A DNA stretch of 64,000 nt from Alicyclobacillus shizuokensis NBRC 103103 (GTDB lineage: Bacteria > Bacillota > Bacilli > Alicyclobacillales > Alicyclobacillaceae). Under the pieces are notes generated by a model. The model saw nothing but the letters and a program-made list of their open reading frames with translations. It made no database searches and was not told the origin of the DNA. Below, one piece after another: positions 873 to 21,022 of this stretch. The position numbers were made by a program, and so were the translations under genes. The DNA lies in contig NZ_BCQV01000007.1 of NCBI RefSeq assembly GCF_001552255.1, positions 1-64,000 of the forward strand. Direction: 5' to 3'. Within the stretch, counting starts at the first letter, position 1. Every line of letters begins with the position of its first letter.

Positions 873-888
873 ACAGGAGGGTGTTGTC

Positions 889-3800
889 GTGGCATACGAG
901 GACTATGAAAACGCGTATTCATCCTATCTGGATATGGACAACCGGACGCATGCGCGCTTTCTGCGTTCCGAGGATGATCGCGACGACACTCCTCTTTATC
1001 AGAAGATTGGAATTGGAGTTCTGGCCGGCGCCGCCCTGTTGGCCGTAGGCCATCGAACGGGCGCTTTGCATCAACTCGGTCGATTCCTTGAAACCGAAGG
1101 AAAGGGCACGCTACAGGCGGCCAAGGAAGCGTGGAGAGAACGAGGATCGGTCCTTCGCCCCGAGACCTATTCGGAGATGGGCCAAGCCTTCTTGGAACGC
1201 CGGCGCGAGATTACGGAGGAACTGCGCGCTCGTAATGAGGATTTCATCCGCAAACGCGAGTACGACATGGTGCGGTATCTCCGACAGCGCCAGGAATTGC
1301 TCGAGAAGCAGTTGCCCTTCCACATCGAAGAACGGATTCGGCAAGGGCAGATCCTGAATCATCTCCGGCAGGCTGGCATCCGTGAAGAAGCCGTTCACCA
1401 AGTCGAGTCCGCCTTCCATGCCGCGCGCGCAGGATTCTTACGTCATGCGGGAGACGAGCAGCTGCGACTTCACTTGGCGCAACATGGGGTCTCCGATCAG
1501 GACGTTCTCAATGAGGTCATCCGCGCGCGGGCCATCCACCGAGATTCGATTCGGAATACAGCGGAAGGCATTGCCTGGATTGATGGCATGCGAAAGCGGT
1601 GGCGCGAACAAACGGCCCATGACATCCAAACCACAACCCGTGACCAATCGAAGAGCGGCCGTCTGATCCGTGGACATAAGAGGGCCACGATCCAGGACAT
1701 TTTGGATCTGCACGAAGCCGGTGTCATTCGGATCGATGCCGATACCCTGACCCAGATCCATGATGTCCTGAAATACAACAAGAAGTTCGGCGAAGCCATT
1801 TTTGACGAGAATTTGTATCTGGTCACGAAGAACGGCCGGACGGTTCTTCAGGACTACAAGGTGTACGATCAGATCGGCCGGCGGACGATGGAATGGTGGG
1901 CGAAGATGCTTCCCGGCGGACTTCTTCACCTTCGGGACATCTTGAATGTGAAAGAAGCGCGGGAGAAAGCCGCTTTTCGTATTTTTGAAGCCGGTACTCG
2001 ACAGCCGGTTCTCAACGCGCATCTTGGCATTGCTCCCCAAGAGACCTTGCGTGAGCCGGTCGTCTTTTCAAATGGACATTTCGGCCGTTTGATGGACGCC
2101 AATGTCATCAACAATGATGCCCCGATTGAAATTCTCAACCCGAACCGGAGGATGTACCTGACTTCCTCACGCTTTGGAACTATCGGTAAGATTACGAGGC
2201 AAGTCAGCGGCATCGCGACCGATCACAAGCGACGGAATAAATTTACCGAGGCCCTGGACCTCTTTAACCAGATGCGGGACACGGAGTATGCCGAATGGTT
2301 CAGCATCGGGACGAAGTTCTTTAACCCCGATTGGGAACGAAACAAAGTCCGCAAGGCGCTGACCGAGCGTCTCGGTTACGACGATTTCTTCGACATGCAC
2401 CGATACTTCTCCCGGTATACCGAAGGATTCTCGCCCCGTGTCTTTAAGAATCTGGTCGAGTACATGCCCGGACACCTGCAGGGATTCATCGAACACGAAG
2501 GCATTAACTTCAACCGGGATGAAGATGTGCTCAAGCTGTTTGAGTACCTGAGTCAGGACAAGGAGGCCACGTTCAGCCTCCGTCAATTTTGGGGCCAATA
2601 TGAGCGAGATAAATATGGTGTCCTCGGTCGCAAGTATCCCGTTGGGGAGGCCAATCCGTTCCTCGGAGGATATGTCAAGATCCAGACGGGCATGGATCAA
2701 ATCCGTCAGAAGGTCAGCCTGGAGTTGATTCGCCAGATCGAAGAGGTTCGCCCCTTTGCATCGAGAACGAACATTCGCGAGATTGCCGAGGAGCTTCAGG
2801 CACAGGGCAAGATTCTCCGGTCTGACCTGGAGCAGATCAGTTGGCTGAAGAACTTTTTCGATCTTGAGCGCCGCGGCCGGGAGATCTATACAGACAAAGA
2901 TGCGGCGCTGGCCGAGATCAATGACCTGTTCCACGGAAGCTCGGAGGACTCACGCCAATTCCGTGCCTCTTTGGAATCGATGGTCAAAAAGACCAATCCC
3001 ATATGGCAAAAGTACGCGAGTACACGAGCGGCCAACCGAGTCGGTGACGAGTACATCGCGGTGAACCAGGCGAACTTTAAGAGTCTGTCGGATGTTATCA
3101 AACAGCTTGGCTTTCGCACAGGACGTCGAAATCTCGAAGACTTTACCACGCTCTCCGTGTTTGGATCCTTCTATCCGGTGTATCGTTTGCAGGAAGCACT
3201 CGGCACGATGGGCCTTGGCTTCTCGGATGCCTCGATGGGAAGCCCGTTGCAGCTTTGGTCCAGCCTGATACTCAAACGCTTCTTGCCAATTGGCCTTGGT
3301 GTCGCGTACTGGCAGTACCTTGATTACAAGGCGGACGACTGGACCGGCATGAGCATCTCCGGCCGTTGGGAGACCTATAAGGCGAACAAAGCCTTGAACG
3401 AGGCCGCAGAGCGCGATGAATCCGGGGAGACGGAACAACGCAAGCGCGAAATGATGCTCCATCCCGGCATTGAGCAGTTTGGCGAGATGCCGGCGATTAC
3501 GCTCCCAGGCCTGGGACGGATTGGGATGGGAAATCTCGCTCAGGTTGTGACCGGCACACTCGGCCTTCCGACACGTCCCCAGGACGCGATGAGTGAGGAG
3601 GAGTTGCTGGAATACTACCAGCAAGGCACAGATCCCGTCCGTAAAGGCCGCTGGTGGCTGTTTGGTTCCAAGAGTGCATACCGCGGCGATCGGATCATCC
3701 AGTTCGCGCCGAATGCCTATCGACGCGCGACCAGTGGCTGGGAGTATTCCGATGTGACCGCGACCGGTGAGGAACGCTGGTCGCATTCGATGATTCCGAC

Positions 3801-6741
3801 CTTGGAGAACCCGCTGGGTATCCTCAAGATGCTGTTTGAGAGCCAGGATGAGCGGTACTGGTGGGAACTGAAACATTACTACGACCGGCCGTATCTTCTG
3901 ACTGGGTCACTGTTCAACCCCAATACCATGTTCTTTGGCGACATCGGCAATGCGACGATTGGCCAGCTGATTAAACCGGTGAAGCAAATGCACCCGGAGT
4001 ATTGGGGGAATCCCATCCTCCTGACTGAGCAAAATGAAGAGATTGGCCAGCGACCGACCGGTCCCATTGTCACCAAGGTGTCGCCCGCAGGCCGCATGGA
4101 AAACGTCGTTCTCGCGACTCCAGAGGAATATGGCTCGGAATACCACGAGGGTTCCTCTCTGGTGCCCCAGGAGGACTACGACGAGATTCATGAGGCCGCC
4201 CCGAGACATGCCGCAGGGCCAGGACGATACGTTCGTATGGATCGTTTGGATGACGAAGGGAATCCAACCGGGGACTACACGCTGATGGATCTTCAGAGCG
4301 GCGATACGATCTTTGTGCCCAGTCGGGTGGCCAAGGAAGGATATACGCCACCAGAACTCTTTGATATGGCGGCGGCTGGACCCGAACCCTCCGAGGAGAC
4401 CAAGCCTCGGGCCATGTTCAGTCAGGAGTTTGCGTATCACAACGAGATCCGCAACCGGCGGCTTCGCAATCTGCAAGATCCACGCAGCATAAACTGGCAA
4501 GCCCAAGAGTTCGCCGCCAACTGGCAAGAGACCCTCGGTGTGTACAACTGGCTCGTCAGCGAAGAACTGTTCAACTATCAGCCGTACGCCATGAAGACGG
4601 TGATCGACAAGGCGGATCGGGCCACCAACATCTCAAACCAGTTCTGGGAAGCCAACCTGGGTGGACTTGGCGGGGAACTCTCCGAGATTGGACGCCGCTT
4701 CATTCGGCGCGACAGTGGTCAACTCCAGCATTATGATCCCGTGCCAAACCAGATGCCAGACTGGCTTCCGGGTGGAGATTATTTCCTCAACTTCCATGTT
4801 GGAGATCCTTACGCTCTCATCCCCTACGGGGAATACCGGTTGCCGGGTGAAGCGTATGAGAAACTGAATCCTTTGCACCCGGACGAGACCGGCCGCTACG
4901 GCGCATTCGATAAGTTCAAGATCCTTGCTGATGTGGCGCCGTGGTCAGATGAGTACAAGTTCTGGCGGGACTATGTCACCCATAACATCACCGACGAAGA
5001 ATTGCGGAAACAAGCGGCGGACATCAAGCGACAAGTCGCCAAACGCAAGCAAAAGTACGAGTTCTACGAGTATCGCTTCAAGGACAAGGATCTGAAACTC
5101 GAGAAGGTCCATGTCACGAAGCTGCTCGATGACTATACATTCTTGACGAAAGAGTACCCGGATACGCCGATTCGTCTGGCCGGCATGCGGTATCAGGCGA
5201 AGGCACCTGGGGTTTTGGCCAGCTACATTCACCCGGGGGATGTCGTGACCATTGGGGTCAATGCCGACGAGCTGCATCGGGTCTCGGATGATACCTATGG
5301 CACGATGCGCGCGGTTGTCTATATCGATAACCTCAAGAACATCAACCTCGACATCCTGCAAAAAGGCCTGATGAAAGAAAACGAGACCGACTTCTCCGCG
5401 CCGGCGGTCCACGCGCGATTCACACCGAAGGAGATTCGGGAAGGCCAGCGATGGGAAACCATTGCCCACTTTGAATCGCCGCTGAACACGAAGTTCCTGC
5501 AGGTTCGCAGTGCCCTTGAAGAATACGAGCGAGACCAAGTGTACGGCAAGGACTATGCGACGTGGCAAGACTTCATGATCCGGGATTACCTCATCCCGGC
5601 CTACCAATCGGAGATTCGTAAGGATCCTGCGGAAGCCGCCATGCGTGGCGCATTCATGGGTGCCTTTATCGGACGCGTCTTTTTTGGTGGTGGGCGCCGA
5701 ACCATCGGTGGGGCTATCATCGGCGCGCTGGTGACTGGTTCAGGGAGCCTGTGGCGAGAACACTGGGAACACGAACATGGCGAGACGTGGATCCCGAAGC
5801 GCCGGCGGATTGAGAATGACATCAACGAATACTTCGACCTGTTGAATTACATCAAGTACAATGCCTTGTACAACAAGGCGAAGGACGAGGCGAGGGAAGA
5901 AGGCTACGATGTCGACGCCATCGTCCGGTACATTCAACAGAAGCAGGAAGACACCAAACGCCTTCGTCAGCAGTTGCAGGCGGAGAAAAAACGGCTGTAT
6001 CTGGAGCAGCCCAAGGACTTCGACGAGAAGAAGAAAGCGATCAATGAGAAACTGGAAGCTATCGACGAGGATAAAGATGAACTGGTACTTCCAGAAATCG
6101 TGGTCGAAGCTCTAGAATACAAGAAGAAACGGGATAGCACCTTGTATGGGGTCGATCCCTATGGAGATCGGCTTCAAGTCATGGCGGCATTCCCGTACAA
6201 GGATCGGTGGTTCTTCAACGCCTTCGTGGAGGCGTCTCCGAAAGAGCGCCAGCGTATTCTTGAACTGGTTCCCGATAACGAGAAGCGCATTTACAAAGCG
6301 ATCTGGGGGATGGATCCCGGAGAAAAGCCGTCTTTGGAGGACTACTTCACAAAGAAGTATTACCTGCCGGGACCGGATTGGGCCGGATGGCGTCCCGAGT
6401 ACGACCTGAACGACATTAAACTCAAGGTCATTCGGAACTACGACAGCCTGGATTTGAGTGATTTCAACTTCTGGCCCGAGGATGTCGAGGCGGCAAAACT
6501 GGCGCCGGATCTGAATCGCGGCAACCAGATTTACCGTTCCCATGTCGACACCACGTTCAAAGGGTATCGGGAGATGTCCCGGCGCATTCAAGAGGTACTG
6601 GAAGGACAAGGTCTGCGAGATGTCCGCGTGACGGCCGCGCCTTCCGGCTCTAACAACTCCCGGATCATCTTTACCTATCAGGAAGACCGCAGCCAAGAGA
6701 TCGCGGACAACCTCAAGCAGAACATCGACCAGTACGTGTAA
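889..6741 (+). CDS. Giant tail-lumen / tape-measure-slot protein with SNase-like domain
   Basis: A 1950-residue protein. GTG 889 is chosen because AGGAGG at 875-880 sits 8 bases upstream; an earlier in-frame TTG at 865 lacks such a site. Residues about 37-57 form a hydrophobic segment (IGIGVLAGAALLAVG). Long helical, charged stretches follow. Residues about 1405-1495 resemble a staphylococcal-nuclease (SNase) fold: IRLAGM, then DDTYGTMRAVVY, then LQKGL in the family's order and spacing. The catalytic arginine of the usual YGR is Thr (T1472) and the acidic DTPE motif is missing, so it is probably inactive. Residues about 1583-1621 are a Gly-zipper hydrophobic region (GAFMGAFIG, GGAIIGALVTG), and about 1665-1735 is a coiled coil. 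The gene lies between chaperones and hub, the normal tape measure position. It could be the tape measure itself or an ejected internal virion protein. Confidence 0.55.
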   Translation: MAYEDYENAYSSYLDMDNRTHARFLRSEDDRDDTPLYQKIGIGVLAGAALLAVGHRTGALHQLGRFLETEGKGTLQAAKEAWRERGSVLRPETYSEMGQAFLERRREITEELRARNEDFIRKREYDMVRYLRQRQELLEKQLPFHIEERIRQGQILNHLRQAGIREEAVHQVESAFHAARAGFLRHAGDEQLRLHLAQHGVSDQDVLNEVIRARAIHRDSIRNTAEGIAWIDGMRKRWREQTAHDIQTTTRDQSKSGRLIRGHKRATIQDILDLHEAGVIRIDADTLTQIHDVLKYNKKFGEAIFDENLYLVTKNGRTVLQDYKVYDQIGRRTMEWWAKMLPGGLLHLRDILNVKEAREKAAFRIFEAGTRQPVLNAHLGIAPQETLREPVVFSNGHFGRLMDANVINNDAPIEILNPNRRMYLTSSRFGTIGKITRQVSGIATDHKRRNKFTEALDLFNQMRDTEYAEWFSIGTKFFNPDWERNKVRKALTERLGYDDFFDMHRYFSRYTEGFSPRVFKNLVEYMPGHLQGFIEHEGINFNRDEDVLKLFEYLSQDKEATFSLRQFWGQYERDKYGVLGRKYPVGEANPFLGGYVKIQTGMDQIRQKVSLELIRQIEEVRPFASRTNIREIAEELQAQGKILRSDLEQISWLKNFFDLERRGREIYTDKDAALAEINDLFHGSSEDSRQFRASLESMVKKTNPIWQKYASTRAANRVGDEYIAVNQANFKSLSDVIKQLGFRTGRRNLEDFTTLSVFGSFYPVYRLQEALGTMGLGFSDASMGSPLQLWSSLILKRFLPIGLGVAYWQYLDYKADDWTGMSISGRWETYKANKALNEAAERDESGETEQRKREMMLHPGIEQFGEMPAITLPGLGRIGMGNLAQVVTGTLGLPTRPQDAMSEEELLEYYQQGTDPVRKGRWWLFGSKSAYRGDRIIQFAPNAYRRATSGWEYSDVTATGEERWSHSMIPTLENPLGILKMLFESQDERYWWELKHYYDRPYLLTGSLFNPNTMFFGDIGNATIGQLIKPVKQMHPEYWGNPILLTEQNEEIGQRPTGPIVTKVSPAGRMENVVLATPEEYGSEYHEGSSLVPQEDYDEIHEAAPRHAAGPGRYVRMDRLDDEGNPTGDYTLMDLQSGDTIFVPSRVAKEGYTPPELFDMAAAGPEPSEETKPRAMFSQEFAYHNEIRNRRLRNLQDPRSINWQAQEFAANWQETLGVYNWLVSEELFNYQPYAMKTVIDKADRATNISNQFWEANLGGLGGELSEIGRRFIRRDSGQLQHYDPVPNQMPDWLPGGDYFLNFHVGDPYALIPYGEYRLPGEAYEKLNPLHPDETGRYGAFDKFKILADVAPWSDEYKFWRDYVTHNITDEELRKQAADIKRQVAKRKQKYEFYEYRFKDKDLKLEKVHVTKLLDDYTFLTKEYPDTPIRLAGMRYQAKAPGVLASYIHPGDVVTIGVNADELHRVSDDTYGTMRAVVYIDNLKNINLDILQKGLMKENETDFSAPAVHARFTPKEIREGQRWETIAHFESPLNTKFLQVRSALEEYERDQVYGKDYATWQDFMIRDYLIPAYQSEIRKDPAEAAMRGAFMGAFIGRVFFGGGRRTIGGAIIGALVTGSGSLWREHWEHEHGETWIPKRRRIENDINEYFDLLNYIKYNALYNKAKDEAREEGYDVDAIVRYIQQKQEDTKRLRQQLQAEKKRLYLEQPKDFDEKKKAINEKLEAIDEDKDELVLPEIVVEALEYKKKRDSTLYGVDPYGDRLQVMAAFPYKDRWFFNAFVEASPKERQRILELVPDNEKRIYKAIWGMDPGEKPSLEDYFTKKYYLPGPDWAGWRPEYDLNDIKLKVIRNYDSLDLSDFNFWPEDVEAAKLAPDLNRGNQIYRSHVDTTFKGYREMSRRIQEVLEGQGLRDVRVTAAPSGSNNSRIIFTYQEDRSQEIADNLKQNIDQYV

Positions 6742-6753
6742 GGAAGTGACGAG

Positions 6754-9700
6754 ATGGCCGATTACTTGAATCTGATCAGTGCCGGCGTACAAATGGTGAC
6801 CCAGACGCAAAGCACAACGCCCATCGGCATTTTCTATCCGGTCCAACGCCGGCCACGAAAAGATACCACGGAGTACGACCAGCGTGTCGCGCATGTACTG
6901 GGTCGGATCAACAGCACGAGACTGAGTTCGAACTTTGGCAAGCCGGGAATCTATGACCACTTTGTCTCGATGGCACAGTCTGCCCGACATCCCGGCCAGC
7001 CGGCCGTCGCCACCTTCAATGAGTTTGTGCGCAGAGCCATGCACGGCGTTCACGGTCGATATGTGGCGTTTGACATTGAGACCCTTGGGGATGCCATGAC
7101 GGGTCATGCGCTCTCAATCACCGAGATTGCCGCACAAGGATTCAATCCCATCCTGGGAACAGACCGGTCCGGCCGGCAGCTGGTGGTCGGGGCCACCCCG
7201 TCGAATGTCCGATTCAGCGCGATCATCCGGCCGACGAATGAGACGGTGCAGTATTTAGAAAACCTGATCACTCGTCTGGAACGGGATCCATACGCATGGC
7301 GATTCATGACAGACGCGGAGAAGAAGTCTTTGTATAACCTGATTCGCTACGATCCCGAAGGACCAGAAGGCGCTCAGCTCGAGGATCCTTGGCGCATTCG
7401 GCACAATCCTCTGGCCGCAATGCTCGAACAAGATCCGCTTCAGAACATGCAGCCGTATACCGCCAACATGCGCCGAGGTCTGGAATACTTGATGGAGAAG
7501 GGCACCAACCCACAAGACGTGATCCGTCAATATGATGACTTCATTCGACGGCACTCCGCCAAACTGTTTCTCTCCCAAAACGGGACCCAGTTCGACCTTC
7601 CGGTTCTTCAGCGTTGGGCCGAGCAAATGGGAGAATCTCTTCGCACACCGGCCAATCACTTGGACCTTCTGACACTGAATCAGACCATCTTCCAAAACCC
7701 GATCACCATGCACCAAGTTTATGGACAAAATACCGCGGTACGTCGATTCGTGGATGGTGCTTGGTCTTTGCAGGAGTTGCGCCGCACGTTCGGATTTGAG
7801 GAAGGTCAGGCCCATAGCGCGTTACATGATGTGGGTGAGCATGGCTTGGGTGGCGTGTTTGCCAAAGCCCTCCCGTGGATCCAACGTCAGATTGAGGACC
7901 GAAAGATTGATCCAACAACGGGATTCAGCCATCGCTCTCCAGTGTTTACGTGGAGTGATGCGAAACTTCAAGTCGGCCAGAAGCTGTTCTCTGTCGGCGG
8001 CGTGATGGCCATGCCGGGAATGGAAGATCACCAAGCTGTCCTCCGGGATGGAGAGTTCGTACCCTATAATCCTGGCTGGAACCGAACGATCATCAATACC
8101 CATACGTTCTATGAAGTGCAGGGAATCCGAAGGCTTAACCAACAGGGAGAACCGCTCAAACTTGCGATTCAATTGTACGACCAAGATAACGACCGTTACG
8201 CCTTCATTATTCGAGAAGGTAAGGATGCAATGGCTCAGATTGGTGAGTTCTTGCAAAGAAGCTTCATCAACTGGGATGGGGCGGATGAGGAAACCAGAAA
8301 CAAAATCCGAAAGCGTCATGGAGAAGAGTACGCACGGCGCGCGTATCGCCGTCTAACCAGTCTGGAGGGGGCCGGTCGCGGCATGACGGCTGGCTTTATC
8401 GGAGCTAGGCGGATGTATCAGAACGCCGCCATGTATGAGAAGCGCCTTCAAGGTAAAGCCGGAAACATGCAGGATAACTTTGACGAGAACGGCAACATCA
8501 TAGACCCCACACGGCGCATTACGCACCAACAGATGCTCGAAGGCATGGACTTCTACAGCAAACCCGGTTCCACTCCAGAGGAGCGCTTCAACCAACAAGA
8601 ATGGGAGAGCTTTTGGTACATGCAACGTCGGCTTCGGTCGGAATTGCCGGTGATGATGCCGGCGCTGGAAGCCATCGAAAAGGCATTTCCTGAACCGACG
8701 AGGAGACGCAATGAGAGCGAATTAGAGTATAAAAACCGTCTCTTCGAAGCGCGCCGGCAGCGCGATATTGCATGGCGGCTGTTTAATCAGTATCTGAATG
8801 AAGTTGTTGGCGACGATGGTCATGTCGAGGAGCTTCCGCTTGAGGAATATGAGAACCGTGGTCTCCATTTCCGAGACCGGGAGACAAAGAAGCCCGTATA
8901 CATCAACTTCACGGATACCACCACGGCGTCAACGAGTATTTATCGCCATATCGCACATGAAAGGGAAGAGGTCCGAAAGCAGAAGCTGACGTCTCTCATT
9001 CACTCGTTGCGCGAGAGCAGCGCCATTGACGATGACACGGCGGAGTATTTCCATCAGGTGAACGCGAATACCAAAGGCATCAGTGAAACGGTCCGGACGA
9101 TTGTGCAGCACCTGATGGCCAGCGCACAAATCATCCGGGATAAAGAAACTGTGTTGTCGCTTCGTGAGCGAAAGGCCATTCAGAAGATCTCGGATGATGT
9201 GTCCAAGGAACTGGTTCAGCGAGCCATCGATCAAACGAAAGGTGCGTGGGGAGTCGCCATTCAACGATCCTTTGGTGATAAAGAACTGCGCCTGAGCCCC
9301 GAGATGTCGCGCTTCTTTGATGAGGAGCTGGATCGGGTCAACCCCATTACGGGCCTGGAACCGAATAACAAGCAAGCGGTCATGGAAGTGCTGAATCGCT
9401 ATCAAGAGATGTTCCCGCATATGCAATTTGCCTTGTCGGTGGCAAAGGACAAGACGGCGGCGGTCATCCACATGTATGACCCGGAGCATAGTGCAAGCGT
9501 GATGGAACATGTCCTGTCCGGCAAAGAACATCCGAACGCGCTTCAGCTGACGGTTCCGCTTGTGACTGAGCGCGGCACGATTGAATACGGAAACCGGAAA
9601 CTTAACTCCCGCGTCACCTGGATGCCTGGACAAGGCAAGCAGGTCATTCGGGAGATGTCCTCGTCCGAGATGATGGCATACCACCTGACCGGCGAGCGGC

Positions 9701-12700
9701 GCATGAACGCAATCCGTGAGGCCATTGAGGCAGGTGACTGGAAGCGAGCCAATGACCTGGTTCGTCAGGGACTCAACAAGGGACTGGATCATTTGGCCAC
9801 GATCAACTTGCAGGACTTTGAGATCAAGGACAACCTGTACAATAACAACCCGGCGGACCTGGTTCGCACCGGTCGCGTCGACATCTCTCCGGCCATGATT
9901 CACGACCTGTACAACCGCGGAATCTTGCGGGAGAAGTACACCGATGAATTTGGTCAGGAACGAAGCGACTTTGTGAACCCCGACGAGGTTTTCTATACGG
10001 ATAAGAGAGGGAACCGCCGACTCAAGCGTCTGGTCAACATCTCGGCGCTGACCATCGACAGACAGGCGGAGCTGGTCATGAATGCGAGGAAGTGGGCGGA
10101 GGAACACGGCCGTCTCATCTACTCCTCGAGCATCAAAGGCGATATGGTGGCAAAAAACCTGTGGTCTTTGATTGACGGCCGGGATCTGGTTACTTACGGT
10201 ACCTTCACCAGCATGGGCCGCGACAACCCGATCCAGTTCCAGAATGTCTCGCGGTTCTTGCCGGAAGTTGTGGAGCGCCTGGGTCAGACGAAGGTGTATC
10301 ACAACTTCAATGAACTGGTAGCCACTCCACTGCAGCACGCGCTGCGGGAGGCACATCAGGATCGTTTCAGCATGAACGTGAAGATGACCTACATGAATGA
10401 GGCGGATCTTCGCAACCGGGTTATGGAACTGGCGGAAACAAAAGAAGGTCGTCGGCTGTTGCAGGAGGAGGGCTGGATTGATGAACAAGGGAACATCGAT
10501 CCAGTGCGCATCGGCCGCGTCTACGAACAGCAAGCCGTCTTCAACCGTGACCTCATCAATGCCCTTGAGGTCGAACGACAGAAGTTCTATGACATGGGAG
10601 ATGATCCTTCGACCTTTGAATGGGATGAGAAGCTGCTTCGCAATGGGGAGCCGATCGAAGGCGCCACGCTAAAGCCAGGCCAACGCATTGGATGGGCGAT
10701 GATCGGCGGAAAGCGTACCGAGATTACCTATGACCGGCCTTATGAAGGGACACTCTGGAGCACCGATGGCCGCATTGGTGTGACCTGGCGAGAGAAGCCC
10801 TTCAAGTTCTTCTTCGAAGGCGAGAAAATGACGCGGGTCGGTGAAGGCGTATCACAGCGCTTGCTTGAACTCATCACGGGCGTCAAAGGCGTCGCCGGTA
10901 TCATGAATACCGATGTCACGAAACACGAGGACTTTGGTGCCATGATGGCGGCACAGGCCAAGAAGCTCGCTGCCTTTACCATGGGTCTGCAGAACGAACG
11001 AGACCGCCAGCGCGCCATTGAGATGATTCATCAAGCGAACATTGGTCTGCGTTGGAATGGTTCCTATTTCGAAGACGTGAGCAAGGAACTTCAGGAGATC
11101 AATGCCAAGGCCTTCCGCGATGTCGCTGAGCAGCTGGATCGGGCGCTGGGTAAGGCCAAAGGCGCTGATCGGAGTCTCTTGGTCAATACGAAGCCACAGA
11201 AATACCAGGCGGTGTGGGGATTGGGTGACTTCCGCATGGCGAACGTCGCCCCAACCGGATTCATCGTCGACAAGGAAGGCAAACACATTTTCTACATGGA
11301 TGAAGATGATGACCTTGTTTCCAGCGGCGAATATAAGGGAACCAGCTACAGCCACCGTGAGATTGGTGTACTCAAAGCTACAGGTCGTGAGAAAACGGCA
11401 AACTATGTACTCGATCTCATGCGGAGACATGGACTCGAAATCGGCCGCAGGCAGGAGACCGTGAATTTTCTCAAGTCGATGGAGGCGTTTGTGGCGCCAG
11501 AAAATGTGGTGGACCCACGCTTTAGTGAAGACTCAGTGGTGCGGCTTGGTGTCCATGACCTTCGTCCTCTCCCGGATGCTTCCGAAGTGACACCGACCCA
11601 AGAACACTATACAGGCACCATCTTTGACCGCCAACATATTGAAAAACTGCTTGGCGACAAGTCGAACGAACATGGATTCTGGTTTGCCCTGCCGGAGTTG
11701 CCAGAGGACATGCGGATTCAGGTTCTGGAATACGCGCGCGGATATGGCGGTGCCAGGGAGAACCTCTCACGGCCCATTGATAAGATCTTCATCCCCTATA
11801 CTGAGCTTCGCGGCCAGGGCAAGAACATTTATCTCTCGGAGGTTCAAAAAAGCATTGCCGACATTTATCGCAAGGCTCAGGCGGTGCGTGAGGCCGCAAG
11901 TAATCAGGAACTCGTCGATGCACGCAACGAGCTGCAATCGGCCGTGGACCGGTACATTAACACACTGGCTTATAATGTGACTTCCTCGAAAGGACAAACC
12001 GGAGAATCGACGTTCAAGGTCCGTCTCCCGTCCTCGATGCGTGGACGTGCCGCGCTGATCTCACCCGAAGAATCACAGATGCTCCAAGGTGAGCATGTTT
12101 TTATCAGTGAGCATGATGCGAGAAAGATGGGCATCTATGACGATTTGGCGGATGGACAAACCCGAGAAGTCATCGTGAACCGCTATCCGACCTTCCACCA
12201 GGATGCTTTGAAACAGGCCATTCTCCACATGCGCAGTGATGTCGCACCGGGAGAGATTCACGTGACGTCCGGTATCGCGGACCTTCTCAAGGCCGACGCC
12301 GACGGTGACGAGCTGAACCTCTTCTATGCGGCGGACAAAGAGATCCAAAACGAGTGGCGCCACATTCGAACGATGGAAGAGAAGATGGCGGCACAGCGGA
12401 CCAAAAAGATCCTCAACGACTTTGCCGAATCCCCGCGTCGCTTTGATTTGGAGAGTTTGGCGGCCGACCAAGGTGGCGTGTTCCGCCAGATTGAACCTGG
12501 CAATGCGGAAACTCAGGCAAAGATGGGGAAGATGTTTGTCGGTCTAGCTGATACGATGAACTTGAAGCTCCGTCAATTTGCCGCAGACTTTGTAGAGGAT
12601 CGGGACCAGCGTGCGGCGGTAGAGAGTTTTGGCCAGGGCTTGGTCCAGCGGATCATCTCCTCCAAACACGGTGGCACAGACATCGGCGCCTTGAAGATGC

Positions 12701-13536
12701 TCGATGCCATGCGACTTGGAAACTGGGATGAGCTAGAGTCCATTGACCAGGACTACTTTGGCGGTGTCCTGACTCAAAAGCACCGCCTTCGTGAAGCTGT
12801 ACCCGTTCTCAAGGACATCACCACGAAGCTCCAATACGGTCTTTATAACCCGACGCTCAACTTCGGTACGGCCGGCGGATGGCGCGTCAACAAGACCGGC
12901 TTGGCACCATTGATGGAGGCCGTACAGGGGCGGCTTACAGATCGTGAGTCCACGGGCAGCAACCCGTTCCTGCAAATGCTTCAGGATTTGATGGGTGTCG
13001 AATCCGAAGACGGCCTGCCGAAATACCGGGTCGAGCCGTTCCAAACCCAAGAGCCACTTCGACGGCCGGAGCGCGCGGGTGGACTGGCGGGTTTCATCAG
13101 TGAGACGCTCGAGGATACCACAGGCGGGATCGTCGATGCCTTTCGTCCGGGAACGATGCAGGCCATTACAGATCGGATCAAGACATTCTTCTCAAAACCG
13201 AGAAACAAGTGGGGATTCATCGGCGGAATGCTCGGACTTGGTGGTATAATGGCTTATAATACCCTTCATGAAACGGAACTTGAACCGCCTCCGGGACCGC
13301 CGACTCCGGCGATTTCTCCGATCGATGAACCCTCTCCTCAAGGCGCCAACATCTCCATCTCTGCCAGCGGAGACAAACAGCCAGAAGAATCCTTTGGTCC
13401 TATGGTTCACGAAGGCATGCGAAATGCGGGGTACAATGGCGGCCCTTCGAATATGACGGTCAACTATACGGACAACACCGCCAATCTGAACCGAAACTGG
13501 TATCGAGACAAGGTTCAGCAATCGATGGCGATGTAG
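6754..13536 (+). CDS. Giant single-chain RNA polymerase-like protein with N-terminal DEDDh exonuclease
   Basis: A 2260-residue protein that starts 12 bases after the previous stop. Residues 103-360 contain a full DEDDh 3'-5' exonuclease set: FDIET (D107, E109), NGTQFD (D281) and HSALHD (H354, D359). Residues 1806-1816 read VIVNRYPTFHQ and 1846-1855 read KADADGDELN. This matches the beta-prime active-site region NRAPTLHR...NADFDGDQM of cellular RNA polymerases (family PF00623), with 38 residues from Arg to the first Asp versus 35 in E. coli. Residues 1301-1384 (GATLKPGQRIG, GEKM, GVKGVAG) resemble the beta-subunit barrel whose two lysines contact NTP; K1358 and K1378 are candidates. GLADT at 1930-1934 recalls the trigger loop. 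Residues 2152-2172 form a membrane segment, followed by a Pro-rich tail. The exonuclease and DxDGD motifs are seen directly. Packaging in the tail and ejection are inferred from position. It may also serve as, or replace, part of the tape measure. Confidence 0.75.
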   Translation: MADYLNLISAGVQMVTQTQSTTPIGIFYPVQRRPRKDTTEYDQRVAHVLGRINSTRLSSNFGKPGIYDHFVSMAQSARHPGQPAVATFNEFVRRAMHGVHGRYVAFDIETLGDAMTGHALSITEIAAQGFNPILGTDRSGRQLVVGATPSNVRFSAIIRPTNETVQYLENLITRLERDPYAWRFMTDAEKKSLYNLIRYDPEGPEGAQLEDPWRIRHNPLAAMLEQDPLQNMQPYTANMRRGLEYLMEKGTNPQDVIRQYDDFIRRHSAKLFLSQNGTQFDLPVLQRWAEQMGESLRTPANHLDLLTLNQTIFQNPITMHQVYGQNTAVRRFVDGAWSLQELRRTFGFEEGQAHSALHDVGEHGLGGVFAKALPWIQRQIEDRKIDPTTGFSHRSPVFTWSDAKLQVGQKLFSVGGVMAMPGMEDHQAVLRDGEFVPYNPGWNRTIINTHTFYEVQGIRRLNQQGEPLKLAIQLYDQDNDRYAFIIREGKDAMAQIGEFLQRSFINWDGADEETRNKIRKRHGEEYARRAYRRLTSLEGAGRGMTAGFIGARRMYQNAAMYEKRLQGKAGNMQDNFDENGNIIDPTRRITHQQMLEGMDFYSKPGSTPEERFNQQEWESFWYMQRRLRSELPVMMPALEAIEKAFPEPTRRRNESELEYKNRLFEARRQRDIAWRLFNQYLNEVVGDDGHVEELPLEEYENRGLHFRDRETKKPVYINFTDTTTASTSIYRHIAHEREEVRKQKLTSLIHSLRESSAIDDDTAEYFHQVNANTKGISETVRTIVQHLMASAQIIRDKETVLSLRERKAIQKISDDVSKELVQRAIDQTKGAWGVAIQRSFGDKELRLSPEMSRFFDEELDRVNPITGLEPNNKQAVMEVLNRYQEMFPHMQFALSVAKDKTAAVIHMYDPEHSASVMEHVLSGKEHPNALQLTVPLVTERGTIEYGNRKLNSRVTWMPGQGKQVIREMSSSEMMAYHLTGERRMNAIREAIEAGDWKRANDLVRQGLNKGLDHLATINLQDFEIKDNLYNNNPADLVRTGRVDISPAMIHDLYNRGILREKYTDEFGQERSDFVNPDEVFYTDKRGNRRLKRLVNISALTIDRQAELVMNARKWAEEHGRLIYSSSIKGDMVAKNLWSLIDGRDLVTYGTFTSMGRDNPIQFQNVSRFLPEVVERLGQTKVYHNFNELVATPLQHALREAHQDRFSMNVKMTYMNEADLRNRVMELAETKEGRRLLQEEGWIDEQGNIDPVRIGRVYEQQAVFNRDLINALEVERQKFYDMGDDPSTFEWDEKLLRNGEPIEGATLKPGQRIGWAMIGGKRTEITYDRPYEGTLWSTDGRIGVTWREKPFKFFFEGEKMTRVGEGVSQRLLELITGVKGVAGIMNTDVTKHEDFGAMMAAQAKKLAAFTMGLQNERDRQRAIEMIHQANIGLRWNGSYFEDVSKELQEINAKAFRDVAEQLDRALGKAKGADRSLLVNTKPQKYQAVWGLGDFRMANVAPTGFIVDKEGKHIFYMDEDDDLVSSGEYKGTSYSHREIGVLKATGREKTANYVLDLMRRHGLEIGRRQETVNFLKSMEAFVAPENVVDPRFSEDSVVRLGVHDLRPLPDASEVTPTQEHYTGTIFDRQHIEKLLGDKSNEHGFWFALPELPEDMRIQVLEYARGYGGARENLSRPIDKIFIPYTELRGQGKNIYLSEVQKSIADIYRKAQAVREAASNQELVDARNELQSAVDRYINTLAYNVTSSKGQTGESTFKVRLPSSMRGRAALISPEESQMLQGEHVFISEHDARKMGIYDDLADGQTREVIVNRYPTFHQDALKQAILHMRSDVAPGEIHVTSGIADLLKADADGDELNLFYAADKEIQNEWRHIRTMEEKMAAQRTKKILNDFAESPRRFDLESLAADQGGVFRQIEPGNAETQAKMGKMFVGLADTMNLKLRQFAADFVEDRDQRAAVESFGQGLVQRIISSKHGGTDIGALKMLDAMRLGNWDELESIDQDYFGGVLTQKHRLREAVPVLKDITTKLQYGLYNPTLNFGTAGGWRVNKTGLAPLMEAVQGRLTDRESTGSNPFLQMLQDLMGVESEDGLPKYRVEPFQTQEPLRRPERAGGLAGFISETLEDTTGGIVDAFRPGTMQAITDRIKTFFSKPRNKWGFIGGMLGLGGIMAYNTLHETELEPPPGPPTPAISPIDEPSPQGANISISASGDKQPEESFGPMVHEGMRNAGYNGGPSNMTVNYTDNTANLNRNWYRDKVQQSMAM

Positions 13537-13547
13537 GGGGAAACTCC

Positions 13548-16500
13548 ATGGCAACAACCGTTCTCGATGACCGGGACGCCCTATATGGGGCGCTCCCTGA
13601 CCATCATTTGCGAATTGGAGATACACAGTTTTACGTACCGCCAACGGCGATTCAGGTGACGCGGCGCGTGCGATCCGACCGGATCAATATTTTGCGTGGC
13701 CGCGGCAGCTTTGCCAAGCAAAGCGGATACTCGGACTTAGTGGTTGAGCTGACGTTGTTCTTTCCAGATACACAGTCGATCAATAACGAACTCCGGCCGC
13801 TTTTGGCTCAGTTTATGAAATGTCCGTTCTTGCCGATTGAGAACACGCATCTAAATAACGTCCACAAGATCGAAGCGGTCACGGTCGAAGGCTTGACGGT
13901 TACAACCACACCTGGTTTCCCGACGACCCTGACCGCGACCATTCAGCTTCTTGCATTCAACCCTTGGTCGTATCTCATCGATCAAACCGGCCGTACCTTT
14001 GATGAGATGATCAACTGGCCGCTGTTTCGTTGGTACTACCAAAGGAACCTAGAGCCTTCGAAATACCGGTACATCCGCTATTTCGAGCCGCTCACCGAGG
14101 ATCTGGACAACAGCTACATCTTCCGTGTAGCCTCCGAGCAGGATCTAAGTGCCATGAAAGCCTGGAGGGTACAGGAGAATAAGCTGTATCAGGATTGGTT
14201 GCAGAAGACCCAAACGACCGATCCGGTGCAGGACATCAAGAATGAATTCGCCTCCGACGAGGATTTCTGGAACAAACTTGACCAACAAGCTCGAAGCGCT
14301 ATTTTCGAGTACGACATTCATATGGAGGAGTGGCCCATCCCCAACCTCCATCTGGTGAGTCTATCTGCGAGCTTCCAGAACATTATCAGCACTGTTCAAT
14401 TGCAGATGCACGAAGCCCCGACGCATCAGTACCTTGGGTCTCAGGACACCGTGTTTGCCGCGGTATTTCAAACCGATGACGAGGAAGCGATTGCGTCGTT
14501 GCAAAACCTCGTGCGCCGTTCCTCATATCTGACCCGGGAGTACCATACGGTACTGTCGAACGGCTTTCTTGAGTTTGATAATCAACTCGCCCGGCTTTTT
14601 GGAGTGCATTACGTCATCATCGATGATATGGTTGTTCGCAGCGTGGAAAACATGCCGGGTGTCTTCGAGGTCACGTTACAGATGACCTCGTACAACCGGA
14701 TGCAGCAGCGGCTGGCGGAAACCCAGATGATTGGCGGTAACGTGAAGTGGGATCTCGGTGGAGCGTTCACGAACTCGTTCCTCAAGATGCTGACACCCCT
14801 TACGTCTTGGTCATGGCTGCAAGATCGTCCGTTCTGGAAGCAAATCACGAGCGATGGATGGAACGAGCTGGACATTCAAAAACAAGCGGTCTACAACGCA
14901 GCCATCCGGGAAGCCTTCAAGATCATCGAGGTGTATCCCGATCTCGAACTCCCGACGTATGCGGAAGTCGAGCAAGCCGGCTTCTCGATTCCGAACACCA
15001 ACGGTGGCTATTTCGTCGACCCGGACTTTTTCATCATGTACGAGGACCCGTTTGAGTTTAACAACATGCTCAAAGACGAAGTGGCGAAGTCCTACACCAC
15101 CGTATTGAGAGATGCCGGCGGTGGTAAAGCGGAGATTACGCCGAGTACAGCCAATCCAGACGAAAAGACCCAAAAGGACATCGACGAGAAAAGTGCCAAG
15201 TATGACAATCCTACATCTGGCATCTCCTCGGGCGATCCCCCGGATACGGCGGACCAGAAGAACCTGTCGACGGCGGACATGGAAACGCTGATCCGAGAAA
15301 AGGCCGCTGCAGAAGGGTTGGACCAGCGGTTCGTCATTGCCTTTGCGAAAATGAACGACGCCAAGCTGCGGCAGTTTTACAATCCTGGAATTGGCGCGAA
15401 CAAAGAGTTGGACAACATCACGGTATCTGACTCCAACATCCCGGTCATGCAGACTGCGGATCTGCATTACTTTAAGGACCCAAGCCTGATTCAAGAAGCT
15501 GCCTATATCGGTGTCATGCGCGTCAGTCCCTTGATGGGGGATGCGCAGGCACTGGGTCGGAGCATTGTCTACAACGTGACCCAAGGCGTAGCGGCCCTCA
15601 AGTATTACCTAAGCCAAGTTGATGATGCCGGGACGATCAATCAGAACGTATATGATGCGCTTGGCCTGGATCCCGACAAGGATATTCAGAAGGCAAAGTA
15701 CGCCGCGGCCATCGCTTTGTATCTGGGCTTCGGCCGAGAGTGGAATGACCTGGTCAGTCAGAATAAACGCTTGCCGTACCTTCTCACGGCCAAGATCAAG
15801 GCCGTCCTCTCGGACATGGATAAAGAGTCCAAGTGGTCCAGCCAGGATCTGAAGAAGAAGTATTCGGCATTGCCCATTGCTGACCAAAAAGCGCCGGCCA
15901 ACACCGAGGAAGATCTGTCCGCACAGTTCCAACCCGATGAGCCTGGAAACGAATCGGATTATGAGAGTGACGATTTCACCTTCCGGGGCATGTTCCAGGA
16001 CATGATTCAGTACGACCGACGCGGCCGACTGATTCGTGCGTTCCCGACTTTCTTTATGGTGTTCATCGATGAGGGTCAGTACGTGGACGGCGTGGTGAAA
16101 CTGGCGGATCACTTCTTTGGGTATTCGGCGGTATCGGACATCACCTATACGAACAACCGGAAACAGGCCTCCAGCACACTCGTCGTGGAAATGTGCAACG
16201 TCTTTGGCAACCTGACGGATGCAACGAAGAGCGTGGACCTGACTCATCCCAACACCCTGAGCCTGTTTGAATCGCTCTTTGTGCCAACGATGGAGGCGGC
16301 ACACATTGAGCAAAGCCGCGACCGGAATTCGAACTACTACAAGTCGATCTTCCTGCGCACGGGGGCCAGAGTGCATTTCCGCATGGGATACGGCTCCAAT
16401 GCCGCAGAGCTGCCGACGATCATGAACGGCACGGTGACACAGCTCGAGAACAACGGGGATACCGTGACGATGATCGTCCAGGATGATGGGGTGGAACTGA

Positions 16501-19500
16501 CCAATAAGCTCAAGGCGAAGCCTGGCGATTCCACGGATGGATTCCTGCAGGCCAAGAAGGAACCGTCTGAGATCATCGACGACCTGCTTCTGGATCGCGG
16601 CAGCGGCATCAGCGGATTCATCGGCAACCTGTGGGAAGACTTCAGCAACAAAGCGTACTATAGCCACTCCCTGGGCATCATGCACTTTGGTATGCATGGT
16701 GTACCGATCTCTGGTCAGGACTTCATCAAAGGGGTTCTGCCCATCGCATGGCTGATTTCAGGTACAGACCGAGACATTTACGAGATCAACATGAACATCT
16801 ACAAGACCAACGGTCTGTTGAATGTCGAGAACGACACCTTCTGGCACAAGCTCGAAGACATGTTTGGTATTGGACAGGGACAGGAAGATAGTATTAACAT
16901 CACACTGTACGACAAGACGGTGTGGGATGTTCTAAGTGTCTGTGCCTACATGGGACCGGACTACATTCTGGCCGTTCATCCATTTGAGTTCCGTAGCACC
17001 ATCTTCATGGGGAAACCGTATTTCCCGCTCAACTATGGGTACGTCGTCGACAATAACAAGATTACGGGAACGCTCATGAAGCCGTTCCGCCAGTACCATT
17101 TGTACGATTCGTGGACGAGCATTATTGACAATAGCATCGTTGCCTCGGAGCAAAATATGTACACCGTGGCGATTGGCACCTTCATGAACGAAGGCAAGCT
17201 CGATACCACGCGCCCCATCTATGTCGACGCGGACATCTGGCCGGAGAAGCAACGCACGGTCAACGTCGACACACAAGTGAACGCCAAGGGAATCTGGTTT
17301 GTTGAAAAGGCCGTTCCCTTCGTGGGAGGTCTGCTTAACAAACCATTCAAGTGGTACTTCGATGAGGGCGTCGCCATCAAAATCGCGGCATCCGCCCTTC
17401 GTGACTATGTGAAGGACATGTACGATGGGTACCTCACAGTGATGGGTGATCCAACAGTAAAGCCGTTCGACCAAATCCTCATCCATGATGAGTACATCGA
17501 CATGGCGGGGCCTGCGGAAGTCAAGGAAGTTACGCAGATCATGTCCCTGGATATGGGCTATGTTACAGCCATCAAGCCGGACTGTGTGGTGGTCAATTCC
17601 GACCGGAAAGTGATCAATGGCGCGTTCTCGATGACGGCCACATTGACACCGCTGTTGGTCACGTTGAAGCTGCGGAGTATGTTCCGAAATGCCGGGTACA
17701 CCGGTGCATTGCCCATCATGAACGCCATTTGGGCCATGACGAAGAACAACATGAAGACGCTCAAGGCCAAATTCGACGCCACGAAACTCGGCACAAAACT
17801 GAACAATTGGTGGAACGGCAGCGATATGCAGACGTATACCCGGAAGTTTGACATGGTTTCAAAAGAAACCATAGAACGGTGGAAGAAGTCCGGGCTTCTG
17901 AAGAAAACGGCCGATACCCTTGGGAGTGTCAATGCACAGCAGATAGAGGAGTTGCTCAACAGAGGCGATTCTGCTTTGCTCGAAAAAGGCTTTTGGGGCT
18001 ATGATAAGGTGAGTTCAGCTGCCAAAACATTGAGACTGGAGAAGGCTACAAGCAAGTTTGTGGCCGGCGGCGCAAAGGCAATTGGAATGGCAGCTCGATT
18101 TGCACAAGCCGGTCTTGTAGGGGCAGAGATGTTCGCCGGTCCCATTGGATGGATCGCCATTTTGGTCGAGACGATGGCCATGTCGCTTCTGACCGCGACC
18201 GTGGGTGAGTTCCTCAAGCGATTCCTCTTCACGCGCCATGCTTGCCTCGTCATGCCCCTTAAGAAAGAAGGCATCGAGTTTACGGCCGGACTCAATGGCC
18301 ATAAGGGATCGGTGGTCGGAGACTCCCCAGACATGTGGCAGTCCCTGTTGACCAATGGCGTCGCGTCCACGATCTTCTCCGTCTTCCTCGGCGTTGACAC
18401 CTCGCAGTATGGCGCGGCTGGAAGCTCCAACAATCCAGTGTCAGTAAAAGCGAGCAGCAATGGGTCGTCAACGGGCTCCAGCAGTTCCGCGATGTCGTTC
18501 TTTGAGCAATACCGCCGGCCGGTTCCGTATGACCCGACGCTAATCCAGTGGTACAACACCGATTTGGAGAACGCCAAGAAAGAGATGTCGGGCGAACTCC
18601 AGCGTCTGGATGACGAGAACAAGAAGCCGGACTACAGCGATGAGATCAGCGCCATGCAAAAGGGATTGCAGGAGATTAGTCAACTGCCTTCTCTGATCAA
18701 GAATGCCATCTCGAATCTGGCGAGTGAGATTGCCCAGCTCATCAGTGGCGGGGATGGCTACAACTACGATGGCACCGACTTTACGAAGATCGACCTCAAT
18801 CAACCAAGTGGCATTAGCGCCGAGGCCATTGATAAGGCATTTGCGGCCAATGGAGGCGGTCATCTCAAAGGGCTTGGAAAATACTTTGTCCAGTTGGAGA
18901 AGCAGATCCCACCGCTTCCGGGACATCAAGCCAAGGAAGGGCGCGTCATGAATGGTTTGTATTTTGCCGCTCACGCCGCCCACGAATCTGGATGGGGAAC
19001 GTCTCAGATCTATCGAGACAAACACAACTTGTTTGGCTACGGTGCATACGACTCCAACCCCTATGGCGACGCCGACTCCTTTGACTCCGATGAACACTGC
19101 ATCATTTTCGTGGCCAACAAGGTGAAGGATGATTATCTGACACCCGGTGGACAGTTCTACAGCAAGGATAAGGGTCCGACCCTGGAAGGCATGAATGAGA
19201 AGTATGCCACGGACAAACACTGGGCCACGGACATCGCCAACATCATGAAAGAGATTGCAAAGCTCGATCCCAACTTCAAATGGCCAGGCACCGCCACTAA
19301 GGTCAAGATCGATGAGACACCGCCCGATCCGAACCATCGAGAGAAATACTATTTGACCCCGGCACAAGCCAAACAGAGATTGGCCTATGTCCCATCCTTC
19401 GGACTCAAACACCTGGGGCAAACATGGGTCGATGGCAGCGCGGCCATCAAGTACGCACACAAGGGTACGCTTGAAATGGCCGATGAACTGGCGAGGCTAT

Positions 19501-19823
19501 ACAAGCAAAAGACGGGAGATAAACTGAATCTGACCTCCACATACCGCGTCGAGTCGGGCAGCTGGCACATGACCGGTTGGGCGATTGACATCGATACCCC
19601 GGACGCCCCGCGGATCGGCGGACAGGTCCGGTTCCCGAAAGGCAGCAAGGAAAAGCAGAACCTCGAGACCTTGATTGACCTAGCGATTCAGGTTGGTTTC
19701 GGCGGAATCATTCACGGGGATGTGGACGTGATCGCAGCCATGAAGAAGAAGTATCCCAACGTTGTGATTCAGCAGCGTGATGACCACTATAACCACTTAC
19801 ATCTGTCCTATCCGAGGGGCTGA
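13548..19823 (+). CDS. Baseplate hub / tail-associated lysin with glucosaminidase and M15 peptidase domains
   Basis: A 2091-residue protein preceded by a GGGGGAA ribosome site. The N-terminal 150 residues and a middle part (about 840-1020: VFIDEGQYVDG, RVHFRMGYGS, VTMIVQDDGVEL) look like tail hub domains. A hydrophobic stretch lies at about 1520-1560 and a Ser-rich linker at about 1625-1645. Residues about 1760-1905 form a glucosaminidase-type muramidase domain (AAHESGWGTS with probable catalytic E1812, then HNLFGYGAY). Residues about 1960-2091 form an M15-type zinc D,D- or L,D-peptidase: SWHMTGWAIDID supplies H2007 and D2014, and HYNHLHLSYP supplies the last histidine. Both domains would cut cell wall during infection, one the glycan and one the peptide. 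The genes that follow are baseplate parts, which supports a hub role. Cleavage specificity cannot be read from sequence. Confidence 0.85.
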   Translation: MATTVLDDRDALYGALPDHHLRIGDTQFYVPPTAIQVTRRVRSDRINILRGRGSFAKQSGYSDLVVELTLFFPDTQSINNELRPLLAQFMKCPFLPIENTHLNNVHKIEAVTVEGLTVTTTPGFPTTLTATIQLLAFNPWSYLIDQTGRTFDEMINWPLFRWYYQRNLEPSKYRYIRYFEPLTEDLDNSYIFRVASEQDLSAMKAWRVQENKLYQDWLQKTQTTDPVQDIKNEFASDEDFWNKLDQQARSAIFEYDIHMEEWPIPNLHLVSLSASFQNIISTVQLQMHEAPTHQYLGSQDTVFAAVFQTDDEEAIASLQNLVRRSSYLTREYHTVLSNGFLEFDNQLARLFGVHYVIIDDMVVRSVENMPGVFEVTLQMTSYNRMQQRLAETQMIGGNVKWDLGGAFTNSFLKMLTPLTSWSWLQDRPFWKQITSDGWNELDIQKQAVYNAAIREAFKIIEVYPDLELPTYAEVEQAGFSIPNTNGGYFVDPDFFIMYEDPFEFNNMLKDEVAKSYTTVLRDAGGGKAEITPSTANPDEKTQKDIDEKSAKYDNPTSGISSGDPPDTADQKNLSTADMETLIREKAAAEGLDQRFVIAFAKMNDAKLRQFYNPGIGANKELDNITVSDSNIPVMQTADLHYFKDPSLIQEAAYIGVMRVSPLMGDAQALGRSIVYNVTQGVAALKYYLSQVDDAGTINQNVYDALGLDPDKDIQKAKYAAAIALYLGFGREWNDLVSQNKRLPYLLTAKIKAVLSDMDKESKWSSQDLKKKYSALPIADQKAPANTEEDLSAQFQPDEPGNESDYESDDFTFRGMFQDMIQYDRRGRLIRAFPTFFMVFIDEGQYVDGVVKLADHFFGYSAVSDITYTNNRKQASSTLVVEMCNVFGNLTDATKSVDLTHPNTLSLFESLFVPTMEAAHIEQSRDRNSNYYKSIFLRTGARVHFRMGYGSNAAELPTIMNGTVTQLENNGDTVTMIVQDDGVELTNKLKAKPGDSTDGFLQAKKEPSEIIDDLLLDRGSGISGFIGNLWEDFSNKAYYSHSLGIMHFGMHGVPISGQDFIKGVLPIAWLISGTDRDIYEINMNIYKTNGLLNVENDTFWHKLEDMFGIGQGQEDSINITLYDKTVWDVLSVCAYMGPDYILAVHPFEFRSTIFMGKPYFPLNYGYVVDNNKITGTLMKPFRQYHLYDSWTSIIDNSIVASEQNMYTVAIGTFMNEGKLDTTRPIYVDADIWPEKQRTVNVDTQVNAKGIWFVEKAVPFVGGLLNKPFKWYFDEGVAIKIAASALRDYVKDMYDGYLTVMGDPTVKPFDQILIHDEYIDMAGPAEVKEVTQIMSLDMGYVTAIKPDCVVVNSDRKVINGAFSMTATLTPLLVTLKLRSMFRNAGYTGALPIMNAIWAMTKNNMKTLKAKFDATKLGTKLNNWWNGSDMQTYTRKFDMVSKETIERWKKSGLLKKTADTLGSVNAQQIEELLNRGDSALLEKGFWGYDKVSSAAKTLRLEKATSKFVAGGAKAIGMAARFAQAGLVGAEMFAGPIGWIAILVETMAMSLLTATVGEFLKRFLFTRHACLVMPLKKEGIEFTAGLNGHKGSVVGDSPDMWQSLLTNGVASTIFSVFLGVDTSQYGAAGSSNNPVSVKASSNGSSTGSSSSAMSFFEQYRRPVPYDPTLIQWYNTDLENAKKEMSGELQRLDDENKKPDYSDEISAMQKGLQEISQLPSLIKNAISNLASEIAQLISGGDGYNYDGTDFTKIDLNQPSGISAEAIDKAFAANGGGHLKGLGKYFVQLEKQIPPLPGHQAKEGRVMNGLYFAAHAAHESGWGTSQIYRDKHNLFGYGAYDSNPYGDADSFDSDEHCIIFVANKVKDDYLTPGGQFYSKDKGPTLEGMNEKYATDKHWATDIANIMKEIAKLDPNFKWPGTATKVKIDETPPDPNHREKYYLTPAQAKQRLAYVPSFGLKHLGQTWVDGSAAIKYAHKGTLEMADELARLYKQKTGDKLNLTSTYRVESGSWHMTGWAIDIDTPDAPRIGGQVRFPKGSKEKQNLETLIDLAIQVGFGGIIHGDVDVIAAMKKKYPNVVIQQRDDHYNHLHLSYPRG

Positions 19824-21014: not shown

Positions 21015-21022
21015 GGGAAGGG

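Follow-up and report, generated by a model that had tools for sequence, protein, structure and literature searches.

A giant tail-operon protein from an Alicyclobacillus phage contig predicted to join a DEDDh exonuclease to a single-chain RNA polymerase

Why should a phage carry the active-site signature of a cellular RNA polymerase in a giant gene among its tail genes? The question is raised by a protein encoded in positions 1 to 64,000 of contig NZ_BCQV01000007.1 of Alicyclobacillus shizuokensis NBRC 103103 (the whole 64,000-nucleotide stretch is referred to here as the window), which lie at one end of the contig (197,999 bases in all). We consider it probable that the protein is a single-chain two-barrel RNA polymerase joined to a DEDDh exonuclease, assembled into the tail and delivered with the DNA, where it would transcribe the first phage genes (Table 1).

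The signature consists of VIVNRYPTFHQ (residues 1806-1816) and KADADGDELN (residues 1846-1855; window 12169-12318), which an earlier note, made from the sequence alone, had read as the beta-prime (β′) active site of multisubunit polymerases. Both motifs are present where that note placed them, and the spacing that it gave, 38 residues from Arg1810 to Asp1848, was confirmed; it is 35 in the host's own rpoC, as counted on a profile alignment. Within the window, all six frames together contain the pattern R.P[TSA]-N25-55-D.D[GQ]D a single time, at this gene; when the protein's residues were shuffled 20,000 times, 30 of the shuffles produced it. An unprompted hmmscan placed PF00623 (RNA_pol_Rpb1_2) on residues 1792-1871 with an E-value of 7.6e-4 and 20.2 bits, which falls below the Pfam cut-off of 25.3 bits. 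Searched against the 3.6-Mb assembly, the same model gave the tail gene 24.5 bits (25.3 with its frame neighbours; E 5.8e-5) and matched elsewhere, at E up to 10, two rpoC pieces only; the β-type model PF00562 matched rpoB only. These host genes were named rpoC and rpoB because they contain the NADFDGD and RHGNKG motifs.

Homologues retain the signature. A search with residues 1250-2100 returned 17 proteins of 2189-2693 amino acids, the query included (the window family), in whose alignment R1810, Y1811, P1812, F1814, H1815, D1848, D1850, G1851 and D1852 are invariant. A 2434-amino-acid relative, gp034 of Bacillus phage vB_BauM_KLEB27-3, carries NRYPTINQ and KADYDGDF, and as a query it led to a sister family, of which 20 proteins were aligned and two, among the matches listed, bear a precomputed PF00623 label. 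Family sizes are lower bounds, because scoring was limited to the candidates with the most words in common with the query (7991 for the window family); in alignment A4, P0021 was left out as 100% identical to P0019, and P0022 lacks its N-terminal end. Aligned as profiles, the two families match over 964 columns of the core with E 7.8e-38 and over the N-terminal part with E 2.2e-44. Across both, R-Y-P and D-x-D-G-D are kept without exception, so that the three aspartates passed the conservation check, and D.DGD occurs once per protein, always at this place.

The predicted fold points in the same direction. The model of residues 981-2132 matches RNA polymerase chains in Foldseek, including the β′-type chain 8t02_J (E 1.1e-6, probability 1.00) and non-virion polymerase chains of AR9 and phiKZ, and among viral proteins it is most similar to an uncultured siphovirus 'minor tail protein' (E 1.0e-19). 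With the invariant aspartates, this match supports the multisubunit-type polymerase core that the earlier note had claimed, and suggests its double-psi barrel. Strand 1834-1838, helix 1839-1845, loop 1846-1852 with DADGD and strand 1853-1857 follow one another in what we take to be the β′ order. The combined 37-row profile scored E 2.8e-4 against an rpoC profile built without L073 and L074, and 0.11 against rpoB. In two-barrel RNA polymerases the β-type barrel supplies two basic residues (PMC7824862); here they may come from the segment with K1351 and K1358, in which position 1358 is lysine in 17 and arginine in 20 of the 37 homologues, and T1360 is present in all. A Protein Data Bank (PDB) sequence search with alignment A2 (full-length homologues) gave no match over the polymerase part. 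The protein was not matched by PF05183, the family of YonO and RNA-dependent RNA polymerases (RdRP), to which it may be distantly related. Chains of QDE-1, phi14:2 gp66 and P23-45 are absent from the 50 fold matches listed in each search, which excludes nothing.

At its N-terminus the protein is predicted to have a 3′-5′ exonuclease domain: the D-x-E, D and H-x4-D residues that mark the DEDDh class were found on a modelled exonuclease fold, and the 16 matches of the same PDB search, all DNA polymerase or exonuclease chains, fall over this part (best E 0.019). Exonuclease residues, aspartates and R-Y-P are all kept over rows down to 20-26% identity with the first row of the alignments. Unlike the DEDDh exonucleases RNase T, PolIII epsilon, ExoI and TREX, this domain is fused to a predicted two-barrel RNA polymerase. 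Archaeal PolD is a two-barrel DNA polymerase with a separate phosphoesterase proofreader, whereas the exonuclease here is of the DEDDh type. In cellular polymerases, RNA is edited by the same active site that makes it; a dedicated editing domain would solve the problem in a new way. At the opposite end of the protein, 35 of the 37 homologues have their most hydrophobic 19-mer within the C-terminal 220 residues, ahead of the D2240-N2241 tail. The earlier sequence-only reading missed the exonuclease, the β-like half and a second polymerase gene, described below.

Table 1. Coordinates of the features discussed (window positions unless stated; residue numbers are those of the 2260-residue protein)
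Feature	Position	Strand	Basis or remark
Whole gene	6754..13536	+	2260 amino acids; predicted DEDDh exonuclease and single-chain two-barrel RNA polymerase
Predicted DEDDh 3′-5′ exonuclease, residues 98-391	7045..7926	+	D107, E109, D281, H354, D359
β-subunit-like half, residues 981-1559	9694..11430	+	Fold match
Candidate basic catalytic segment K1351..K1358-x-T1360	10804..10833	+	Conservation; putative catalytic assignment
β′-like barrel region, residues about 1761-1880	12034..12393	+	Foldseek β′-type chains, PF00623, secondary structure
RYPTFH, residues 1810-1815	12181..12198	+	NRAPTLH counterpart; R-Y-P in 37/37 homologues
DADGD, residues 1848-1852	12295..12309	+	Predicted magnesium-binding triad; D, D, G, D each in 37/37 homologues
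Q1965..I1968..K1971-H-G motif	12646..12672	+	Q, I, K in 37/37; resembles ID..K.G of the second polymerase
Glycine-rich hydrophobic segment, residues 2153-2171	13210..13266	+	Borderline membrane helix
Conserved C-terminal motif D2240-N2241..WYRD	13471..13509	+	Possible docking tail; D2240, N2241 in 37/37
Upstream neighbour, tape-measure position	865..6741	+	1958 amino acids; conserved upstream neighbour
Downstream neighbour, glucosaminidase/lysin, hub-type	13548..19823	+	2091 amino acids; PHROG 20474 endolysin, E reported as 0; PF01832 E 1.2e-13
Two baseplate genes, wedge-type	20613..21886	+	133 and 287 amino acids; PHROG 975 E 2.8e-9 and PHROG 261 E 2.2e-5; PHROG 6 E 1.6e-23
Second single-chain RNA polymerase, outside the window	contig 154520-157795 (L020:11520-14795)	-	1091 amino acids; PF05183 E 1.2e-12

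If the protein is a polymerase, is it a virion protein? The earlier note had placed the gene between tail chaperones and the baseplate hub; the hub-type neighbour downstream is indeed there, whereas the immediate upstream neighbour is a protein in tape-measure position rather than the putative tail chaperone at 195-872. In eight of the nine loci examined, the homologue lies between homologues of these two neighbours; the eight reduce to seven distinct loci, because L010 and L011 give identical matches (L001, L002 and L004 represent the window, and the partial metagenome-assembled locus L077 was unused). Baseplate genes follow the lysin/hub gene wherever the locus is long enough, L006 stopping within the lysin gene. 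The tape-measure-position protein matches two 'structural protein' genes of KLEB27-3, in which its homologue is split, and a 'virion structural protein' of Acinetobacter phage ME3; both records contain tail sheath genes, and gp034 of KLEB27-3 is itself annotated 'structural protein'. A neighbourhood of virion genes, as expected of virion RNA polymerases, was found at these eight loci, and ME3 carries a version of its own at the corresponding place.

ME3, the ninth locus, gave no sequence match to the window protein. Between its 'virion structural protein' and 'baseplate hub' genes lies the unannotated ME3_36 (L023:33172-37983; 1603 amino acids), with the motifs REPAQG and D-H-D-Q-D; all 16 of its relatives keep R-x-P and D-x-D-Q-D unchanged. 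The model of the window protein matches a library model of an ME3 protein (Foldseek E 1.1e-10), which from its size appears to be ME3_36. ME3_36 thus likely represents a third tail polymerase family, as judged by its motifs. Moorella phage MTATph1 has instead, at L094:8513-15869, an insertion bearing a gene annotated as a transposase (by eye, of the IS21-like kind), flanked by an exonuclease-like frame of 1309 amino acids and a frame of 313 amino acids with the C-terminal tail motif (both by eye). The polymerase module can therefore be absent, since this locus is without the D.D[GQ]D signature.

The contig encodes a second single-chain RNA polymerase, a candidate non-virion polymerase with the motifs GGADNDGD and IDRPKHG. 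ID..KHG is present in all four of the second polymerases read, and PF05183 itself matched three of seven records. The protein had no PDB sequence match, and its scores against the window family, the sister family and the combined profile were not significant (E 0.79, 0.29 and 0.23). The nine plasmid records with the tail polymerase (seven from one search and three from another, one shared) are the same nine that have the second polymerase. It is also present in four of eight phage or viral records, all four of the window family.

The contig also has genes for portal, terminase, ribonucleotide reductase, a UvrD-type helicase, a DnaG-type primase, sliding clamp, RecA, a DnaB-like helicase and a DNA polymerase III alpha of the phage, the last at contig position 81187-81948 in an open frame of 1172 amino acids. 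Its relatives, likely phage-plasmids, are 200-240 kb plasmids of Bacillus, Paenibacillus and Cytobacillus, among them a 205-kb plasmid in B. licheniformis, and contigs from Paenibacillus sp. TCA20 and Oceanobacillus profundus, whose loci coincide with L007 and L005. An actin-like segregation protein of the ALP/ParM type (L021:3605-4963) suggests that the phage persists as a plasmid. A transposase gene lies within the phage contig at L020:8595-9521 (contig 151595-152521).

These observations suggest a scheme in which the 2260-residue protein would be made late and sit in the tail beside the tape-measure-position protein and the hub; its packaging is suggested by gene position, the KLEB27-3 label and the presence of a second polymerase. 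On entry into the cell, the C-terminal hydrophobic segment would lie in or near the membrane, and pre-early transcripts, including that of the second polymerase, would be made from the incoming DNA before the second, non-virion polymerase takes over. The exonuclease may act on the 3′ ends of the protein's own RNA, in editing or trimming; alternatively, it may trim DNA ends or host nucleic acid.

Several known systems bear on this scheme. The N4 virion RNA polymerase (vRNAP) has a T7-like fold, and phi14:2 gp66 of a crAss-like phage is the closer fold class. Both resemble the window protein as polymerases fused to large proteins (PMC10770324 for gp66, PMC12633501 for N4). The experimental precedent for a polymerase embedded in a tail protein is gp96 of Thermus phage P23-45, a virion RNA polymerase of 5002 amino acids fused to the tape measure (PMC10770324). 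It transcribes the pre-early genes, among them the gene for the non-virion polymerase gp64, and its authors suggest that transcription occurs during DNA entry. Likenesses are the single-chain two-barrel polymerase (predicted for the window protein), D-x-D-G-D, the giant tail protein and the second polymerase. However, gp96 is the tape measure itself, with an N-terminal polymerase and no clamp, whereas the window protein has its predicted polymerase in the C-terminal half, stands as a separate protein beside the tape-measure-position gene and adds an N-terminal exonuclease; the word 'exonuclease' is absent from the main text of the P23-45 paper. A P23-45-like relay, drawn from this analogy, is our best reading for the window phage. 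The phages phiKZ and AR9 also pair a virion with a non-virion RNA polymerase (PMC13282480), but theirs consist of several polypeptides and the window protein of one chain. Polymerases of the YonO and RdRP/QDE-1 type, including gp99 of 0305phi8-36, which is encoded in the right arm (PMC2147016), share with the window protein the aspartate triad in one chain and, by prediction, the two barrels; PF05183 assigns the second polymerase to this type, from which the tail protein differs by having no PF05183 match and by adding an exonuclease and a tail location. In 0305phi8-36 the 'tape measure' gp146, numbered beside the hub gene, was assigned mainly via tail-length correlation (PMC2147016); it might conceal a polymerase, as ME3_36 seems to.

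Among the open-licence literature matches listed (titles and abstract beginnings), there was no description of an exonuclease-fused virion polymerase, nor of the separate tail protein or of these three families; no mention of KLEB27-3 or MTATph1 was found, and nothing relevant by title on phage-plasmids. A virion polymerase fused to a giant protein is already known, and the exonuclease fusion is, as far as these listings show, apparently undescribed. The window-protein family may be among the 23 families aligned in PMC10770324.

Several results weigh against the proposed reading. On the structural side, Foldseek gave TM-scores of 0.12-0.18 when all 1152 residues of the core model are counted, low because each row covers part of the model; the evidence for the β-like half is a fold match to a predicted model, and the N-terminal model has a predicted TM-score (pTM) of 0.52. 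The window family alone did not significantly match Firmicute rpoC (E 0.088) or rpoB (E 0.084), and the control region 561-980 scored as well as the test region against rpoC (E 0.071). As for packaging and the relay, the 'structural protein' tag of gp034 is a record label alone, and the six reading frames of the 30 kb of MTATph1 examined contain no D.D[GQ]D, nor did its record give a PF05183 match. The second polymerase was not found in KLEB27-3, G089, ME3 or MTATph1 (four of the eight phage or viral records), and the nine co-occurrences in plasmids are not independent, because five of the records are from closely related Bacillus and the matches in two reach only 20-25% identity. No promoter motif emerged from 47 right-arm upstream stretches, where gapped-word and mismatch counts were no better than in shuffles, and a promoter and terminator scan of L020 was at chance level; this null is no evidence of absence, because the right-arm gene calls are crude.

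The strongest rival is an active RNA polymerase merely encoded in the tail operon, which would be made late and, unpackaged, serve late transcription in the cell. YonO is reported to transcribe the late genes of its prophage (PMC5467207), and some records with the tail polymerase lack the second one. We nevertheless regard this as unlikely: the place between tape-measure-position and hub genes is fixed in eight of nine loci, the hydrophobic segment and C-terminal tail are conserved, KLEB27-3 labels its homologue structural, and in the window family a second polymerase is already at hand for the non-virion role. A structural tail protein with a dead polymerase fold would account for the large size, the tail position and the MTATph1 relative without the motif, but it is very improbable, since aspartates, R-Y-P and exonuclease residues persist down to the most divergent rows and the retention of both active sites is unexpected for a dead scaffold. 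Exonuclease and polymerase in one chain are typical of DNA polymerases. Least probable of all, even with that arrangement and the two barrels of PolD (PMC10770324) in its favour, is a PolD-like DNA polymerase or primase with a proofreading exonuclease, because the phage already encodes a DNA polymerase III alpha, a clamp, a primase and a DnaB-like helicase and the gene lies among tail genes; the fold matches listed are RNA polymerase chains, PolD not among them, which excludes nothing.

Beyond the window phage, the tail-delivered, exonuclease-bearing polymerase could be one case of a wider design. The related designs found in large phages and plasmids from Bacillus and allied bacteria, together with the distant ME3 version, suggest that tail-delivered transcription is general. 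That a self-editing virion transcriptase, relieved by a second polymerase, is widespread and so far unrecognized among the large phages and phage-plasmids found in Firmicutes, and has a distant counterpart of the ME3 type, is a more tentative proposal, which we think possible rather than probable. The reading is testable, because cultured plasmid-bearing Bacillus strains and the KLEB27-3 phage exist.

Further along the window are three other giant frames: one of 2824 amino acids (33070-41544) with a match to a virion structural protein family close to its C-terminus, one of 1705 amino acids (41891-47008) that matches a family of unknown function, and one of 1650 amino acids (50695-55647).
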